A stretch of 64,000 nucleotides of DNA from assembly GCF_048128805.1 (NCBI RefSeq), contig NC_136000.1:13288854-13352853 (forward strand). The letters run 5' to 3'. The notes beneath the pieces are model-generated. The model saw only the letters and a program-made list of their open reading frames with translations. It made no database searches and was not told the origin of the DNA. Positions within the stretch are counted from its first letter, which is position 1. Each line of letters starts with the position of its first letter. This document shows positions 44,301-60,731 of this stretch, in pieces. The stretch comes from Centroberyx gerrardi. Lineage: Eukaryota > Chordata > Actinopteri > Beryciformes > Berycidae. The position numbers and the translations under genes are program-made.

Positions 44301-47300
44301 TCATGATACCGTATACATAAATGACACTTTGGCAGCTAATTATATAGAAGGTGAGGAGTGAAAGCAGAGTACTGTTGGTAGAACTGCACATGATGAAACA
44401 GAGGTTGGAGCACACAGAGGGCTGCTGTCGTATTCGTTGAAGCCACAGGGAGCAGACATCTTTCTGAGAGACACAGGTAAGCAGCAATCTGCAAACATCA
44501 TAAAGAAAACATAAATATCTGTCTCTCTCAGTCTCGCTCTCTCTCTCAAACACACGCATTCACTGAAAACGCAGATGTCACCTGCTCGTCTCCAAAATAG
44601 TAGGAGGATCAGTGTCTCCAAGGAGAAGCAACAGCACAGCACTGTGGACACAAAAGGAGTTGCATTAAAGAGATGTGAATCAATATATTTTACTACAAGG
44701 TCTGTTTCAGGAAAATTATAAATTGGTGCCTCTTACCCACCCTAGGTCTTCATTTTGGCTGAGAGTCAGACAGGTATCAGGGAAACAAGCGATGTTCCCG
44801 AGGATTCCTACACAAATCTCCTGGAGAAGGGGGAAAGCAAAAGAGAAATCTATGAACTGCCATGGGAATTCTCAAAGCCCAGAAATACAGCATAGCATAA
44901 AAGGTAACAAGTAAATTTGCAAGGAGTACATTTTGACGCAGAATGCATAAACTGAAAACAGTTCACTCACTGTGAGACGTGGACAGCGAGATTTGGCTAT
45001 CACTCCAAGAAGGATATCTGCAGCTTTGAATTCCTGTAGGAAACCAGCCACATCCTGCACACAGTTGGTAAATAAAAATCCATCCATGCACCACAGAAAC
45101 CTATTCATCCAGAAAAAGCTGCTTAAACTGATACATGGTTCACTGGTAACTGCCACACATGGTTTGGTTCTCTGGTAATGCTATATGAATGGCAGACACA
45201 AAGGCAACCAGCAACTTGTTTCATAATTCTCAGTTACATCTCCTTGGTTATGTCCAAAAACTGCACTCACACAATTTACATGCTGCACTCAGCAGTTATC
45301 TACTGAGCACTAAGCATGCTGCATTAACTCAGTGCACTGCTTATATACCCAGAACATTAACATTAATTAACTTTAACAGTGAATTCAAAAGCTGAAGCCC
45401 AAACGCCAATCCATGTCAGCCATCAAACTATTGTTTTGACTGGTTGACTGGTTAGTTTTACCATGATGCAAGTCACACAGCAGTTTTGCCTGCCTTACTA
45501 TAGTACTCCCTGGATAGTGCTAAAAGTATAGCATTTTAATATACTGAGGTTGAAGAACATTCTGCCAACTAAATCATTGAAATTTTTTTAATTCTGGAAA
45601 AAAAAAAAGCCTCAACAACAACAATTTGATTTATGCTGAACATCCTGGTGAGTTTTCCCAGGTAGATATCTTCTACTTTCCTGAAGAAAATCAATTTTGG
45701 GCTCCCTTCTTGTTGTGGTTTTTGTTTATATTATTTGGCTGTAAATATTTCTCATATATACAATTTTGTACATGCTAGTTTACAAAAATGGGAATAATTA
45801 TTCACCAAATGTACAGTTTCTGTTTATATTTCAAAAGCTCTCTTGTACATCACTGGATGTACTTGGTTGCAGTCCAATGCAATTGACAACCAAGTGCCTC
45901 CCACACAACCTCTGCTGTGTGGATTCTCTTTTTTTTACTTTTTTTTTTTTTTGAAGACCAAGGCCAGAACATGAAGTACTATTCAGGCCCTCTTACTTTT
46001 TGTATACTAATGAAAAGAGGTTATGTGCTAAATAAGGATTTTGACCAAACTTTGAAATGGGTTGTAGCTACCTTTATGAATACCATTTAGTGGGAACTAC
46101 ATTTTGCATGACAATTACCAGAAACGCAATAATACATTCTAATCTCACTTGTTTGTTAAGACTACTCTAACACCAAAAGGATCCATCTGAACCTCACATG
46201 AAATAATGAAATAACGAGGATAGAAAAGCAGAAAGGTATGGCAAACCAAAGATAGCCTAATCTTAAAAAGGTATGAGACGGAGAGAAAATACTCCACCTT
46301 ATCCATTGCCATATCCCAAACTCTACACAGATCTTCCTCCTCGTCTTCAGGGAGCTGCATCTGACCATCAGAGTCCTCTTCTGCATGCTCTGTCACCATC
46401 TGGAAGACATGCCAATTTTTTTAAAAGATTATGACATTCCAGCTGTATTGGACAGTTGGACAGTGGAGAGCGACAGGTCAAATAGCTGGTAGGGCTGGTA
46501 GGGGATAACTTGTGACACAGGTCATGGGTCAAACTCATGACATTGTAGATGTATGGTATGCAACTTGCCCAGATCACCCCCATTATGATCATAATTATGT
46601 ATTATCATATATTTCAAGACTCAGCCTAGTAATCTCAAGCTGTAACATCATTCAGACTCAAACTCATAGTTGTTAAGTATACAGGGAAGAGCCACAGATA
46701 GTGTTGGTTATTGATGGACATTGGTTTCTGAAATAAAATGACATTGTTTGTCATCATTTGTACATACCATTAGCTTTTCTAAATAGGTTCACAATATGTT
46801 AGGCTGATGTTTTCCAATGAAATACAACTATTCCACACGAGATCCCAATGTCATTTTGTTTGTATTCACCCTCTGAAAAAGCCCCCGAGTGCATTGTATC
46901 CTTAGATGCGGAGAAAGCGTTTGACCGAGTCGAATGGAAGAACTTATTTACAGTTTTGGAAAAATTTGGATTAGGGTCGTCGTTTATAGCTTGGACTAAA
47001 TTATTATATGCATCTCCCACCGCAACAGTTCAAACTAACAGTACATTTTCTCAGCCTTTGTTCACTTTTTATGGCTCAATATTGACATCAGCAACGAAAA
47101 TCAGTGCAACACCCTCCCGACGCCACAGTACCTGGATGAGTCGGGTCAGAGTGCTGAAAAGCCAGTGTTTGCTGTAAACAGTTTCTCCAATGGCGTCCAG
47201 ATCCTCGTCCTCCTGTCCATCGGCTGTGTCTGGAGGTGGTGAGGGGTTACGATCCATCACAGGAGAGTGTTTCCCTGCAGACAAGGAGCTATCATCCTCC

Positions 47301-48991: not shown

Positions 48992-49501
48992 AATCTAGTT
49001 TAATTGGACTTGATAACAAGTGTTTGATGGTAAATAGGCTAATGTCAATTTAGATTAATAGTCCTGTCCCTAATCAAAACTACATACGCCTATCTCACAG
49101 TAATTTGGCTTGGCTGTCATCCTCCCTGAACAGTGTGTGCTGTCAGATAAGAATAGGTAGGCTATACGGACACTTCTCGAAAATGCAGCCATCTAACTAT
49201 GGAAGGGGTCCAAGAATCTGTTTGCCCTTGGAGGGGCTCCCACTCTGCGTAGCTATTTGATAACATGCAAAATGACTGTATTACGCTTTGGTTTCCAAGG
49301 CAGAACCACAGTTCCGACTTATGACAAGTTTTTCCTGAAAGGCTAAACATGCATGATGTCAGATCTGATTTCCCCTACCAGTTGGAGAGATTAATAACCT
49401 CCTGTGTTGTATAACTGTGACTATTTGCAGAAGTGAGTTCACTATTCAAGCACCTGTTGACCAACAGTCAGAGGCATGTAAATAACCACTGAGTGATGTT
49501 G
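48992..49501 (+). repeat. Local duplication, copy 1 (left part)
   Basis: Aligns in the same orientation with 58481-58999. Shared blocks include CTAACTATGGAAGGGGTCCA, ATCTGTTTGCCCTTGGAGG, ACATGCAAAATGACTGTAT, GATTTCCCCTACCAGTTGG and ACTATTCAAGCACCTGTTGA. Divergence is moderate, with several small insertions and deletions. Copy 1 resumes at 56271 after about 6.8 kb of inserted transposon DNA. I do not recognise the unit as coding or as a named repeat. Confidence 0.8.
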
Positions 49502-50340: not shown

Positions 50341-50354
50341 AGGCTGCCATTTTC
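50341..50354. repeat. Target-site duplication of the L1, copy at the L1 3' end
   Basis: AGGCTGCCATTTTC occurs here and identically at 55625-55638, immediately outside the two ends of the L1 element. The bases beyond differ on both sides, so the duplication is 14 bp. Confidence 0.92.
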
Positions 50355-53300
50355 TTTTCTTTTCAAAATCTTTTTATTGAGATTTTCAACAAAAGTTTCC
50401 AGGGTTGGGCAGGCATATTCCACATTGTTATAAAATATACACCAATGTAGTATCATATAAAAATAAAAACAGTGACAATAGTGACAGTAATAAAGTAAGA
50501 CGTCCCTACCCTCCCACCCCCTTGATTACCTAGAATAGGTACGAGGCACAGAATCTAGAAATAAAGAAATAAAACTAAAGATGTAGCTATTTTCATGAAG
50601 TCAGATGTTATTTTCGTGTCAAGGGCAGGGCTAGAATGCATGTCACACTATGTCGTTTGGGTATTATGAAAGTATGTCAAAAAGGGTCCCCAGATCTTAT
50701 AGAATTTCTCCCCAGAGCCACTGATTGAGAAGCGTATCATCTCCAATTTAAGGCAGGACATTATGTCTCGAAGCCACTGACTAAGTGTGGGCGGGGAAGC
50801 ATCTTTCCATTTGAGCAAGACTGCGCGTCTAGCCAAGAGTGAGGCAAAGGCAACCATGCGGCGCTCTGCAAATGTCAGATGAGGATCGTTTTCATCAGTA
50901 ATGCCAAACAGAGCTACCAGAGGGTCCGGGTCTAGATTCCACTTTAAGATGTTGGATAGGGTGTGAAAGACGTCTTTCCAGAAGTTTTGTAATTGAGGGC
51001 ACAGCCAGTACATGTGGATAAGGGTAGCATCATTGTTTTTGCATTTGTCGCAAGTGGGGGTGATATCAGGGTAGATGCTAGACAATTTAACCTTGGGCAT
51101 GTGGTGCCCTATGAACTACCTTAAATTGCACTAGGCAGTGTCTTGCACAGAGTGAGGATTTGTGTATTGATGTGAAGATGGAATCCCATTGGTCAGCAGA
51201 TAGTGTATGCCCCAAATCATGTTCCCAAGCTGTTTTAATCCTGTCCAGAGGTGGACATGTCAGCATGGAAATTTTTCTGTACAACGTTGACAATGCACCT
51301 TTAGATAGTGGGTCGAATGAAAGAAATGTGTCAACAGGGTTAGTATCAGGTTCTTCAGGAAAGCACGGTAGGACAGAGCGCACATAGTGTCTGACCTGTA
51401 AATATCGAAAGAAATGTGTTTTGGGTAAGTCGTATTTCTCTGACAGTTGGTTGAAAGAGATAAAACAGTTATCTTTGAACATGTCTTTAAACCATCTGAT
51501 GCCTTTCCTGTGCCAGTTTGAGTCGTGTCGAGATGGGGTGAAAAGATGTTTGGAAGCAACAGGGCTCAAAAGAGAGAAGTCTCTGTAGCCAAAGGTCCTC
51601 CTGAACAGGGCCCACACTCTCAGGGTATGGCACACAACTGGGTTGTCTATTGATGTAGTCAGAGAGTGGCTAAGCGGTGAACCGAGGAGTGCTGGAAGCG
51701 AAATATCCTGGCATGATTTTAGCTCCAGAGATGTCCATTCTGGGCTGTTGGGCTGAAGGTAGAAGTGGTTCCAAAAGGCAAGACAACGAATGTTAGCAGC
51801 CCAGTAATAGTGGCAGATATCAGGGAGCCCCATGCCCCCGTCTCGTTTGAGTCTCTGAAGTAGGATCTTGCTTACTCGCGGCTTCTTATTTTGCCATATA
51901 TAAGAGGAGATAGTCGAATCTAGTGAAACAAGAATGATTTTGGGATAAACACTGGCACACACTGAAATAAATATGTACATTTTGGGAGTATATTCATTTT
52001 TATAGAGTTTATTCGACCGGCAAGGGACAATGCAAGAGGGGACCACTGCAGTAGCGATGTTTTAACCTGATTTAGTAGAGTCAAGAAATTTTCTTTAAAA
52101 AGATTTTTGAATTTCCGTGTGACTGCTACTCCCAAGTAAGTGAATTGTTTTTCTTCAGTTTGAAATGGTATGTCATTGTAGTCTAGGTCAGATGCTTCCT
52201 TATTAATTTATAATAATAATTTATCTTGTATCCCGATAGGGATCCAAACTGGTTAAGCAGAGAGAGTGCTGCTGGTAGAGAGGTTGTTGGGTCTGAGACG
52301 TATAACATGCATATAAAGACACTTTGTGCTCCATACCCCCCCTCCAAATGCCGGCAATGTCTACGCTGTTACGAAGAGCAATCGCAAGCGGTTCGATAGC
52401 TAGATCAAAGAGGAATGGACTTAGTGGGCACCCTTGGCCGGTTCCACGGCCTAGGGCAAGAGGCTGAGAAAATGTACTGTTAGTTTGAACTGTTGCGGTG
52501 GGAGATGCATATAATAATTTAGTCCAAGCTATAAACGACGACCCTAATCCAAATTTTTCCAAAACTGTAAATAAGTTCTTCCATTCGACTCGGTCAAACG
52601 CTTTCTCCGCATCTAAGGATACAATGCACTCGGGGGCTTTTTCAGAGGGTGAATACAGTATGTCAAAAAGACGTCGGACATTAAAAAAGGAGTGACAATT
52701 TTTAATGAAGCCTGTCTGATCAGTTGCTATTATTTGGGGGAGGACTTCCAGCCTGTGTGCCAAAACCTTCGCTAGAATCTTAGCATCTGTGTTCAGTAGC
52801 GAGATTGGCCTGTACGAAGCACACTCTGCAGGGTCCTTCCCCTTCTTGGCTATGAGAATTATACATGCCTCATTTAGAGATGGAGGGAGTGAGCCCAGCC
52901 GAAGGGATTCAGACAGAACGGTTGTTAGTTGCCGGGAGAGGAGCGCAGAAAACCTCTTAAAGAATTCGGCTGGAAATCCATCCGGCCCTGGTGATTTTCC
53001 AGATTGCATTGATGATACGGCTAGGGCTATTTCTGCTTGCGTTAGAGGCGCTTCTAGTTTCTCCACCAAGTCTGGGGGAATAGTTGGGATGGGCAGAGGA
53101 TCAAGAAAGGCTTTGATTGTCATCTCATCTCCATCAAATTGGGAGTATAGTTGGGAGGAGTATAGTTGGGAGCAGAAATCTTTAAATGTATTATTGATTT
53201 TAATGGGATCTGAAGTGACATCTCCACTTTCTGTATGAATACTTGTTATAAGTTGCTTAGCCCTCCGTCCTTTTAGTTGATTAGCTAACAGTTTCCCTGT

Positions 53301-55624
53301 CTTTTCACCATGTTCATAAAATGTACTTCTGCTTTTTAATAAAAGATTTTGCGTTTGGTGAGTAGTAAGGAGGTCAAATTTTGTTTTGAGTTCTAGTCTT
53401 TAGTTATATAGTTCTGGGGTTTGGGTCAGTGCATATTGCTTATCGATATCTAGGATTTTAGATGACAGATCCAATCGTTCCTTTTGAGAATGTATTTTCT
53501 TGTTTGCAGTGAATCATATAATTTGCCCCCTTAGATAGGCTTTGAGTGCATCCCAGACCATAAGACCAGAGACATCTGGAGTATTATTGGTTTCAAGAAA
53601 AAAAGGATTTGTTCCTCTATATACTTTACAAACTCATTGTCGGAAAGCAGGGTTGAGTTAAAACGCCAGTGCCTAATGGGCCGTGGAATACCAGGAAGTG
53701 ACAGTGACATCACAACAGGGGCATGGTCAGATATAACAATACTTTGGTATGTACAGGAACGGACTTGGGGGATTAACCTGTTGTCAATAAAAATATAATC
53801 TATTCTGGAGTACGTGTGGTGAACATGGGAGAAAAAAGAATACTGTCTCTCTTTAGGGTGGTGGAACTGCCATATATCTGAAATTCCATACTCAGAGAGA
53901 AAAGACTGAATGTGTGAAGCAGATTTACTCACTACACCAGGTTTGGTGGAAGAGCGGTCCAGCACTGGGTCCAACCAACAGTTGAAGTCCCCCCCCGAGT
54001 ATTAAGTAGTGGGAGCCCAGGTCAGGGAAATGAGAAAACAGGCGATCGAGGAAGCGGACATCATCTATGTTTGGGGCATATACGTTGGCCAAGACAACAT
54101 TTGTGTTGAATAGTTTCCCTGAGACAATTATAAATCTGCCGTTCCCATCGGCTGTGATTTTGGTTGGTTCGAAGAGTACGTTATTAGCTACAAGGATAGA
54201 GACCCCTCTTGCCTTCGCCTGGAAAGTAGAGTGGAAGTGCTGCCCCGCCCAGCCTGCCAGAAATCTGGAGTTGTCTGAGGAACGCAGGTTTGTTTCCTGT
54301 AAAAGGGAATATCTGTGTTAAACTGCTTAAGATGGGTGAATACTTTCTTCCTTTTAACTGGGTGATTCAACCCCTTGACATTCCAACTCACAATATTAAG
54401 ATAGCTACCGATTATATTTTGTAAAGAATGCGTGTTGAAGAGTAACAGTGTGGTGTAGACTCCATGTAGTAGCATTAAAAGGGAAATAGACAATGCATAG
54501 CATACATTCCAAACCAGACCCCCTGCAACATTTACAGAAAGAACCTAATTGAGTGCCAATGTTAAAGCAAAACTGTCCCTTCCCTACCCCCCAGCCCCAG
54601 AAAGCTTCCAAGGAACATGAAAGCACAATAAAAACTACCCATATAACCATATCCCAGATAGTAACTGTGTTGAACAGTCGCAAGCTCTTAACTCTTACCA
54701 ATCCGTACATACCCTTCCCGGCAGTTTTAGGCCTCGATCCCGTATTGGTACAAGTGCCTCAGAATAAAGAACAGTCTTCGAGATAAATAAAGTAATAATA
54801 ATAATAATATTCATTAATAATTAAATAAAAATAAGGGTTGGGTTAGGGTTAGATAAATTAACAAGTGAATAAGACATCCAGTCGAAAGGGTGACAGGCCA
54901 ACCATTACTAAGCATTGCATTAGTAAAACAAGGTGATAAAACACTAAGTATAGTTCAGTTAGAGTTCTCTATGAAAGCAGCATGTGTAAGAGAATTGCAA
55001 ACATAAGAAATGGAACTTTGCATTTATGGTCTTTCAGGTCTAGTAGTTCGACAACCGCAATTGTGTTATGCGCACATCAGTCACTGTATCACAGAAGCGC
55101 AGCCCCATGATAAGAATGTCCATATGTAGTGCTCAGTCTTATGTGAGGTAGTTCGTCCAAACCCGTAATGACAAGGACTGGGTACAGGAGCGATGGTTTA
55201 AACCCCCGTTGGTAGAGCGCCGACATCACCTCCCGGTACGCCTCCCTCGTCTCCATTTTGTCACTGAGCTGGTTCGCGTTAGCTTCGAGGGAAGTCAGGC
55301 GGTGTCCGTGGTCTGTGACCGTTGTCTGGACATAGTCCAATTTCGCTTCAAGTGATGTTATGGCCTATTTAAATTCCATGGAGAGGGCTGCTCTATGCTC
55401 CTCCAGTAGCTTAGTCAGGGCGGCCATGTTCGCAACGGAGGTGGTGGGAGCGAACGTCTTTTTTGGTCGATTGTTTTAGCAAAAAAGTATGTAAAAAAGA
55501 AAAAACTATAAAATTTCACTTTGCTGTGTGCAGAAATGAGGCTTTAAAGTTGAGTTGTCTATAAAATGTAGCGGGAGCCTGAGGGACACGCGTCTACTCC
55601 ATTCGCCACACGGAAGTCCTCCCC
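50355..55624 (-). mobile_element. L1-clade LINE with intact ends but defective ORFs
   Basis: 5.27 kb, minus orientation, bounded by the 14-bp duplication. The 3' end (50355) is A-rich with AATAAAAAG on the minus strand; the 5' end (55624) begins GGGGAGGACTTCCG. ORF1 (start 55427) has an N-terminal coiled-coil-like part (AALTKLLEEHRAALS), an in-frame TAG, and then joins abruptly to its C-terminal part (VMSALYQRGFKPSLL), so the middle is deleted. ORF2 shows an endonuclease start (LNIVSWNVKGLNHPVKRKK, about 54390), endonuclease end (SDHAPVVM, about 53720), RT blocks ([46 protein letters not shown]; 53123-52330) and a cysteine-bearing C-terminus (CDKCKNNDATLIHMYWLCP). Several frameshifts and stops break it, and the two aspartates of the catalytic YADD motif are missing near 52305. 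It cannot move itself. Confidence 0.9.
52461..52657 (-). repeat. Segment of the L1 RT region copied into saal1 intron 2
   Basis: The exact inverted counterpart of 46861-47057. Outside these 197 bp the two loci share nothing: the next base differs at each boundary. Confidence 0.95.
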
Positions 55625-55638
55625 AGGCTGCCATTTTC
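55625..55638. repeat. Target-site duplication of the L1, copy at the L1 5' end
   Basis: AGGCTGCCATTTTC, the second copy of the 14-bp duplication. It continues directly into the L2 reading frame (AAIFKVTNYLLLGADVGESS), which shows that the L1 landed inside the L2. Confidence 0.92.
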
Positions 55639-58480: not shown

Positions 58481-59095
58481 AATCTAGTTTAGTGGGAAAT
58501 GATGACAATTGTTTGATGTTAAATAGGCTAAGACTACAAATGCCTATCTCACGTAATTTAACCCTCTAGGCTAACATCCTCCCTGAACCAACAGAGTGTG
58601 TGCTGTTAGATAAGAATAGGTACAGACACTTCTCAAAATGCAGCTGTCTAACTATGGAAGGGGTCCAAAAATCTGTTTGCCCTTGGAGGAGCTCCCACTC
58701 TGTGTAGCTGTTTGACAACATGCAAAATGACTGTATAGTTAACCACAATTTAGCCAGCAGTATTTCCTGAATGGCTAAACATGCCTGATGGGACGTTCTG
58801 TAAGGCTAAACATGCATGATGGCAGATCTGATTTCCCCTACCAGTTGGTGAGATTAGTAACCTTCTATGTTGTATAATTATTATTAATTATAACTATTTG
58901 CAGAAGTGAGTACACTATTCAAGCACCTGTTGATCTTAATGATGATGTCCCAACAGTCAGAGATTATCTTGGCATGAAAATAACCGCTGAGTGATGTTGA
59001 TGTCTGATGTCTGTTAAAACAATTATTGTCGACAGTTAGGTGATACACTGTTGATGACACTGAATAACTATTGTTGACAGTTAACAGTGGGCTAT
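58481..59095 (+). repeat. Local duplication, copy 2 (uninterrupted)
   Basis: Direct-orientation partner of 48992-49501 plus 56271-56353, about 9.5 kb away. It keeps both parts contiguous, with only about 14 bp between them, and so represents the empty site for the 6.8-kb block in copy 1. Confidence 0.75.
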
Positions 59096-59854
59096 CAAAA
59101 TAAAGTGATGCAGAGCAAATAAATGGAATTATATCACTCCAATCCTTGCATCCTTGCACTGGTTCCCCAGAGTCCAGGCTCAAGACTAAAGATCTTAACA
59201 CACCAAGAATTACGCAAATAAACGACACGAAATTGCAAATAATTTGCAGGCAAATTTGACGCACCATTTACATTCACACCAAATGCAATGCAATTTTGCG
59301 ATTAAATTATATAGGTTCTTTAGAAAAAGTCCACACCGTCAGCAGAACCAAAACAAAGCAGATGCTCTGCTTCAAGCTCTGGAAAGTAGCACGGTAATAG
59401 GGCCCTGACTGAGAGTCAAACTGCTTTGTTTGGTATTGCATGTGTGGTTGCTACCACTAGGGTAATTCTGCCAATGGGGCTGCATTCAGTATAATCATTT
59501 GGACGTTTTGATGATGATATGTTTATGGGTTTGCCCTTTTTGTTTGTTTGCTATTCTGAATATTTGGAGCTTCCTTTTTTTTAAAAATAATTATTGTTTT
59601 TTGTGTGTGTGCCTGAAGGCTACTAGTTCAAGTGCCTCAATATCAAACGCATATAAAAATAGCCTACAGGCCAGTAGGAGCAGCATAACGCCATGAGTGC
59701 TTTATTTTGCTACATTTATTACTCGGTTGGTATAAAATATTATATCCCCAACTATCAAGCTCCATACCATCGTTAGTAACAATAATTCAGTTCTCCATTC
59801 GGTTTCCTACCATAAGATGGATTTAGCTATTAGCTATTTCGCAACAATATTCAT
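59096..59854. other. saal1-mucin spacer: no gene recognised
   Basis: No coding or transposon signature that I can name in this 0.75-kb stretch. Confidence 0.45.
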
Positions 59855-60600
59855 ATGCCATCAATCAATGCTGAAGAAAAAAGGAAAACAGAGGGAGAGA
59901 TAACAGTGGATGAAATCAATACAGTTATCCATCAAATGGCCCCAGGAAAATCACCTGGCCTTGATGGCCTTCCACAAACATTCTATTCAATGTTTCACAG
60001 TAAACTTACCCCTTTATTACTGGCACACTATAACAAGGTTTTTCGAAAAGGTTTTTTCCCTACATCCTCGAATACAGCATCAATAACTCTACTTATCAAG
60101 AAAGATAAAGACCCCTTGCTATGTGGGAACCAGCGTTCCCTTTCAATCTTGAATTGTGATGTCAAGATATTGACTAAGGTGTTAGCAAATAGGCTGAAAC
60201 AGGAAGTAACTAAACTGGTACATCTTGACTAAGTTGGCTTCATACGTCAACGACATAGCTCAGACAGCATCAGATGTTTAGTAAATCCCCCACTCCTACT
60301 TTAGCATTGTCCCTGGATGCTGAAAAAGCCTTTGACAGGGTGGAGTGGGAGTACCTGTTTAAGACTCTGGAGACATATGGTTTTGGCCCCCATTTCATCA
60401 GGTGTGTTAGAAGTCTATACTCTGGTGCCTGTGCCCCAGTCATTACTAATGGCAGGGCCTCCCGCAATTTTGAGCTCCATAGGGGGACCAGACAGGGGTG
60501 CCCTCTCTCTCCCTTGCTATTCATTCTGGCCCTCGAACCACTCGCTATAGCAATACTAGAGAACTCTGAAGAACTGGTCCCCACTGACTTCAGTTGTTTT
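59855..60600 (+). mobile_element. Second L1-clade LINE fragment (reverse transcriptase, degenerate)
   Basis: Encodes ITVDEINTVIHQMAPGKSPG, SILNCDVKILTKVLANRLKQ and, after a stop at about 60230 and a frameshift, [20 protein letters not shown] and HRGTRQGCPLSPLLFILALE. The protein differs widely from the element at 50.36-55.62 kb, so it is another family. Both ends are truncated and no target duplication was found. Confidence 0.8.
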
Positions 60601-60670
60601 AGAGAAGGCTGCTATGGAGTTGTGCTGACAACCTCCCTGTGTTATATGGACAAACCTCACCTGTGTTTCA

Positions 60671-60731
60671 ACTGGCATGAGGGTGAGTAGATGACGACAG
60701 AATTTTCATTTTGGGTGAACTATTCCTTTAA
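60671..60731. repeat. Terminal fragment of a common fish DNA element
   Basis: ACTGGCATGAGGGTGAGTAG followed by GACAGAATTTTCATTTTGGG and TGAACTATTCCTTTAA resembles the end of an abundant teleost non-autonomous DNA transposon, from memory. The other end was not found. Confidence 0.5.

Follow-up and report, generated by a model that had tools for sequence, protein, structure and literature searches.

The 64-kb stretch of DNA analysed in our study (the window) comes from what appears to be a fish genome, judging by its size, the saal1-like exons and the large number of L1 families, and contains a minus-strand gene that we take to be saal1, following an earlier note on this DNA. One of its exons has a coding part at 47132..47257 (minus strand, 42 amino acids), with an apparent start codon at 47257, and its frame has no Pfam match; the next coding exon lies at 46298..46399 (minus strand), with limits set by eye from AG and GT. 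The intron that follows the first of these exons holds a 197-bp internal fragment of L1 ORF2 (reverse transcriptase, RT) at 46861..47057, which runs in L1 sense on the plus strand and is antisense to saal1. The earlier note had reported an exact inverted match with sharp ends for this segment, and our window comparison reproduces it: 197/197 bases of 46861-47057 are identical to the reverse complement of 52461-52657, the RT peptide is the same, and similarity is at background level immediately beyond both edges. The distance of 74 bp from the end of the insert to the splice donor was also borne out, as the exon ends at 47132 and its GT follows from 47131. The earlier numbering of this intron as intron 2 would require a 5' UTR exon, since the adjoining exon carries an apparent start codon.

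The motif TTGTT directly adjoins both edges of the insert, as previously noted, at 46856..46860 and 47058..47062 (plus strand), and these two copies form a direct repeat that is a putative target-site duplication. The chance of such a 5-bp edge match is 0.0014 when estimated from random window positions and 0.0036 when estimated from the intron's own sequence. Neither edge has a poly(A) or other A or T tract or a splice trace marking an RNA origin, and neither AATAAA nor ATTAAA occurs in the insert on either strand. If the TTGTT repeat is taken as the duplication, the nick site on the bottom strand, read by eye, would be ACAA/AATG, which differs from TTTT/A. Uninterrupted microhomology with the continuation of the donor is absent from both junctions; at the right one, inspection by eye shows CAA/TTG in common with the donor once a single base is passed over. 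The insert and its source are arranged as inverted arms separated by 5403 bp. In a scan of the window for exact matches of at least 22 bp on both strands, with low-complexity words excluded, the 197-bp match is the longest exact repeat and only two others were found (26 and 22 bp); a blastn comparison of the window with itself (E<=1e-10) yielded one further pair, of 74.6% identity, and these 64 kb, rather than a genome-wide rate, are the background for local exact inverted copies used here. When the 779-Mb assembly was searched with the left flank (361 bp) and the right flank (74 bp), each had a single match, to itself; consequently, the surroundings of the insert do not belong to a repeat, and the search gave no sign of a second haplotype.

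The segment to which the insert corresponds (52461..52657, minus strand) belongs to a decayed L1 at 50355..55624 (minus strand), in which both ends are present and 5270 bp lie between 14-bp target-site duplications at 55625..55638 (5' copy) and 50341..50354 (3' copy). Its RT frame matches RVT_1 (5.3e-25), and the segment falls within that match, in agreement with the earlier statement that both ends of the insert are internal to the L1 coding region. An upstream frame reaches 24.1 bits for an endonuclease family, just below the curated cut-off of 24.5. The closest relative of this L1 among the assembly matches listed is a copy on contig C11 (C11:31973853-31983288), which carries ~440 bp and ~3.1 kb of extra sequence inside an otherwise continuous L1, both probably later insertions. 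Relative to this copy, the L1 of the window lacks ~392 and ~311 bp of its ORF1 region, where the C11 ORF1-like frames are open across the whole of the first stretch and at least part of the second, and it also has a deletion of a few bases at what we take to be the RT catalytic box. These findings uphold the earlier view that the neighbouring L1 has lost ORF1 and RT function, and such losses make self-mobilisation unlikely. Two other features were observed around this element: a pair of direct repeats (49076-49501 and 58530-58999, 74.6% identical) that brackets it, and a second L1-type RT remnant at 59834-60690 on the plus strand, which is distant from it (55% amino acid identity over 80 residues).

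The source of the insert was sought in the whole assembly (779 Mb, 278 contigs), where only the best candidates were scored, so that all counts are lower bounds. The full 197 bp matched at least three places, two of them in the window at 100% and the third in the C11 copy at 93%, while the remaining four of the seven matches listed cover 77-111 bp at 75-79%. The neighbouring L1 is therefore the only 100% match besides the insert itself among the matches listed. In this stretch it differs from the C11 copy by six amino acids, a 5-base gap, and silent and neighbouring changes. The six amino acid sites alone were polarised, with 12 other L1 loci, obtained after merging overlapping loci and excluding the family's own copies; some of these 12 loci are closely related to each other. 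At four sites (A/T, W/C, V/D and F/C) the C11 state occurs in 0/12 of these loci. The other two carry states private to the donor: an N that none of the 12 loci has (Y in 11/12, H in 1/12, and Y in C11), and a T that is likewise found in 0/12 (I in 9/12, V in 3/12, and I in C11). The insert carries both of these missense substitutions (Y to N; I to T), and it follows that its template was most likely the neighbouring L1 copy after decay had begun. An alternative template could be a sister copy that had the two private changes and has since been lost or is missing from the assembly, but the position of the insert 5.4 kb from the neighbouring L1 would then be a coincidence, given that a donor drawn at random from the genome would lie within ~5.6 kb with a probability of ~1.4e-5. 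Identity, proximity and shared private changes support the earlier proposal that the L1 nearby served as template. For templated insertions it is frequently difficult to say which locus was the donor; in this case, the decay marks private to the dead L1 indicate both the donor and its distance of 5.4 kb.

The whole donor L1 was also searched against the assembly in four pieces. Its 3'-end piece (a 1500-bp query) returned at least 15 rows, ten of them at 92% identity or more: one is the donor, and the other nine belong to eight further loci; the two C11 rows were counted as one interrupted element, whose 3' end row lies ~3.1 kb further on. All eight of these other family loci (8/8) reach the family 3' end, at query positions 1485-1493 of 1500, and the other five listed rows (65-73%) stop short of it. 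Reaching a common 3' end is the pattern of ordinary 5'-truncated copies, unlike that of the insert. An internal part of the donor L1 also matched 40 bp at C6:9040772-9040811 (93%), where either another small fragment could have been captured or the sequence could simply be conserved.

Regarding age, the absence of differences over 197 bp limits the divergence between the two copies to 1.5% or less (upper 95% bound). If the insert were as old as the L1, the probability of observing no differences would be 0.058 according to the donor-private substitutions (9/1249 columns) and 0.011 according to the divergence between the donor and the C11 copy. These low values suggest that the insert is probably, but not certainly, younger than the donor L1, and the private decay marks point to a history in which the L1 inserted first, then started decaying, and was copied after that. 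With a neutral rate of ~4e-9 per site per year, the insert would be at most roughly two million years old, a bound that later conversion keeping both copies alike could loosen.

We consider it very likely that the insert arose by repair-templated copying at the locus in some form, be it end joining, template switch or reverse transcription. Our preferred reading, which seems moderately probable, is that a staggered break was closed by end joining with a fragment made locally, giving an inverted templated insertion of local origin. The saal1 intron would have been opened at TTGTT by a double-strand break in the germline that left short staggered ends, at a site that would previously have read CATTTTGTTCAC, with one TTGTT; a strand of ~197 nt, for which the dead L1 at a distance of 5.4 kb on that chromosome was the template, would have closed the gap, joined in inverted orientation, most likely via end joining of a short DNA fragment made nearby; fill-in of the overhangs would have left the 5-bp repeat, and the donor L1 would have remained in place. 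In this course of events we infer the break with its overhangs, the pathway of joining and an intermediate of DNA (not RNA). It is important to consider that the 5-bp repeat may be older than the insert or due to chance, and that junctions without uninterrupted microhomology count against end joining, although PMC11724301, on yeast insertions, describes a large fraction of the events in one Cas9 data set as being without it. The L1 identity of the insert is probably incidental: with 5.3 kb of L1 next to the break, L1 sequence was likely to be what got copied.

Among known insertion types, the insert is a templated insertion in the general sense, a kind already known, because its sequence is copied from another locus and the donor is kept; it matches no single sub-class. 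The templated insertions (TSI/TSIP) described in PMC5110952 measure 73-414 bp in experiments, with a median of 191, and include partial L1s among their templates in people. The insert resembles them in being a short copy from elsewhere (197 bp, near that median) with an intact donor, whereas the donors in that description are distant and here the donor lies 5.4 kb away on the same chromosome. As presented there, class 1 has a target-site duplication of at least 5 bp, a non-templated poly(A) after a polyadenylation signal and a preference for TTTT/A, and class 2 has no duplication, poly(A) or TTTT/A and shows microhomology, microdeletion or added bases. Compared with the first, the insert has TTGTT as a putative 5-bp duplication, but neither poly(A) nor TTTT/A; compared with the second, it has a 5-bp repeat and no microhomology. 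With a repeat but no poly(A) or TTTT/A, it consequently fits neither class cleanly. Breakage-replication/fusion (PMC12807874) is described with 126 short insertions (median 184 bp), which are added to either strand, whose origins lie within 10 kb of the inferred broken ends in 113/126 cases, and whose junctions often have more than 2 bp of microhomology or added bases. The insert is similar in length, and its origin lies 5.4 kb from the insertion point; in contrast, those insertions come from an experimental chromothripsis clone and 111/126 form part of chains at large rearrangements, while here a single clean insert is found in a reference assembly, with rearrangement judged within the window only. 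Telomeric-repeat insertions in the horse (PMC7215372) would share with our case a repair insertion with duplicated target bases, staggered-break target duplication being described at 3/66 loci, and at two more with other changes, but their material is telomeric and here it is a local copy. No fish case of this kind was found in a limited literature search at the level of titles and abstracts.

The first alternative, which we regard as fairly unlikely, is a replication template switch (MMBIR or fork switching), in which a 3' end would jump 5.4 kb to the inverted donor, copy 197 nt and return. Inverted orientation and a nearby template are the signature of this process as described in PMC8421209, where the resulting insertions (MMB-TI) are known as germline variants, and the CAA/TTG of the right junction, available after a one-base skip, is of the interrupted kind of match allowed there. 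Two observations set the insert apart from the MMB-TI of that report. First, the junctions: neither edge shows uninterrupted microhomology, as against at least 1 bp at 138/155 and 135/148 of its resolvable germline junctions. Second, the distance: the tool presented there seeks templates within 100 bp only, and here 5403 bp separate the arms. In addition, a simple return would leave no 5-bp repeat, which the staggered-break reading accounts for by fill-in.

Reverse transcription is also unlikely in our view. By this route, an L1 or other RT would have extended a broken end by copying RNA of the dead L1, such as a read-through transcript of local origin, in the manner of endonuclease-independent insertion or RNA-derived templated insertion. 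It has been reported that templated insertions in human cells are tied to RNA and enriched for transcribed sequence, that RT inhibitors reduce them more than three-fold (PMC5110952), and that L1 insertions are found at Cas9 breaks (PMC9237045). In our case, the sequence carries no RNA marks (neither poly(A) nor splicing), the RT of the donor looks broken, so that an outside enzyme would be needed, and a preference for a target as near as 5.4 kb would be expected of nascent RNA alone, not of RNA acting in trans. A narrower version, in which nascent RNA of the dead L1 was reverse transcribed in cis to mend a germline break, with a short target duplication and no tail, seems quite improbable to us, but, if true, would mean that an immobile retroelement still seeds its own fragment nearby.

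Short inverted chimaeras arise in some libraries, and an assembly or library artefact could therefore produce such an arrangement; this is very improbable, given that a clean 5-bp edge repeat would not be expected, that the window contains no N and that both 197-bp copies sit on one 37-Mb contig. Ordinary target-primed L1 retrotransposition, truncated at both ends, would account for L1 sequence with a direct repeat, but we reject it as extremely improbable because the insert stops inside ORF2 and lacks both the 3' end and a tail, the target differs from TTTT/A, the direct repeat measures 5 bp as against 14 bp at the donor, and no independent copies with the same internal ends were found among the best-scoring assembly matches. 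Gene conversion, suggested earlier as a very recent local event, was rejected as the origin, as there is no L1 sequence outside the 197 bp beside the insert to convert. A repeat family with fixed ends, which the earlier note had named as the finding that would overturn its reading, was rejected as well: our search for other copies with the same two end points found none among the best-scoring assembly matches.

The insert illustrates how a defective retroelement can place part of its sequence in a neighbouring gene without transposing. The share of local donors, if countable genome-wide, would be of use in telling in-cis DNA repair and trans-RNA models apart.

Our study also considered the splice-like sites of the insert by means of a crude count of consensus letters, a score too crude for a conclusion but compatible with the earlier suggestion that the insert could affect saal1 splicing. 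The top 3'-site-like score lies in the insert, at 46901 (12/15 pyrimidines), with 11 at most outside it, and position 46869, also in the insert, has one of the two top 5'-site-like scores (5/7). Outside the insert, 5'-site-like sites likewise reach 5, and the true saal1 splice donor scores just 4.
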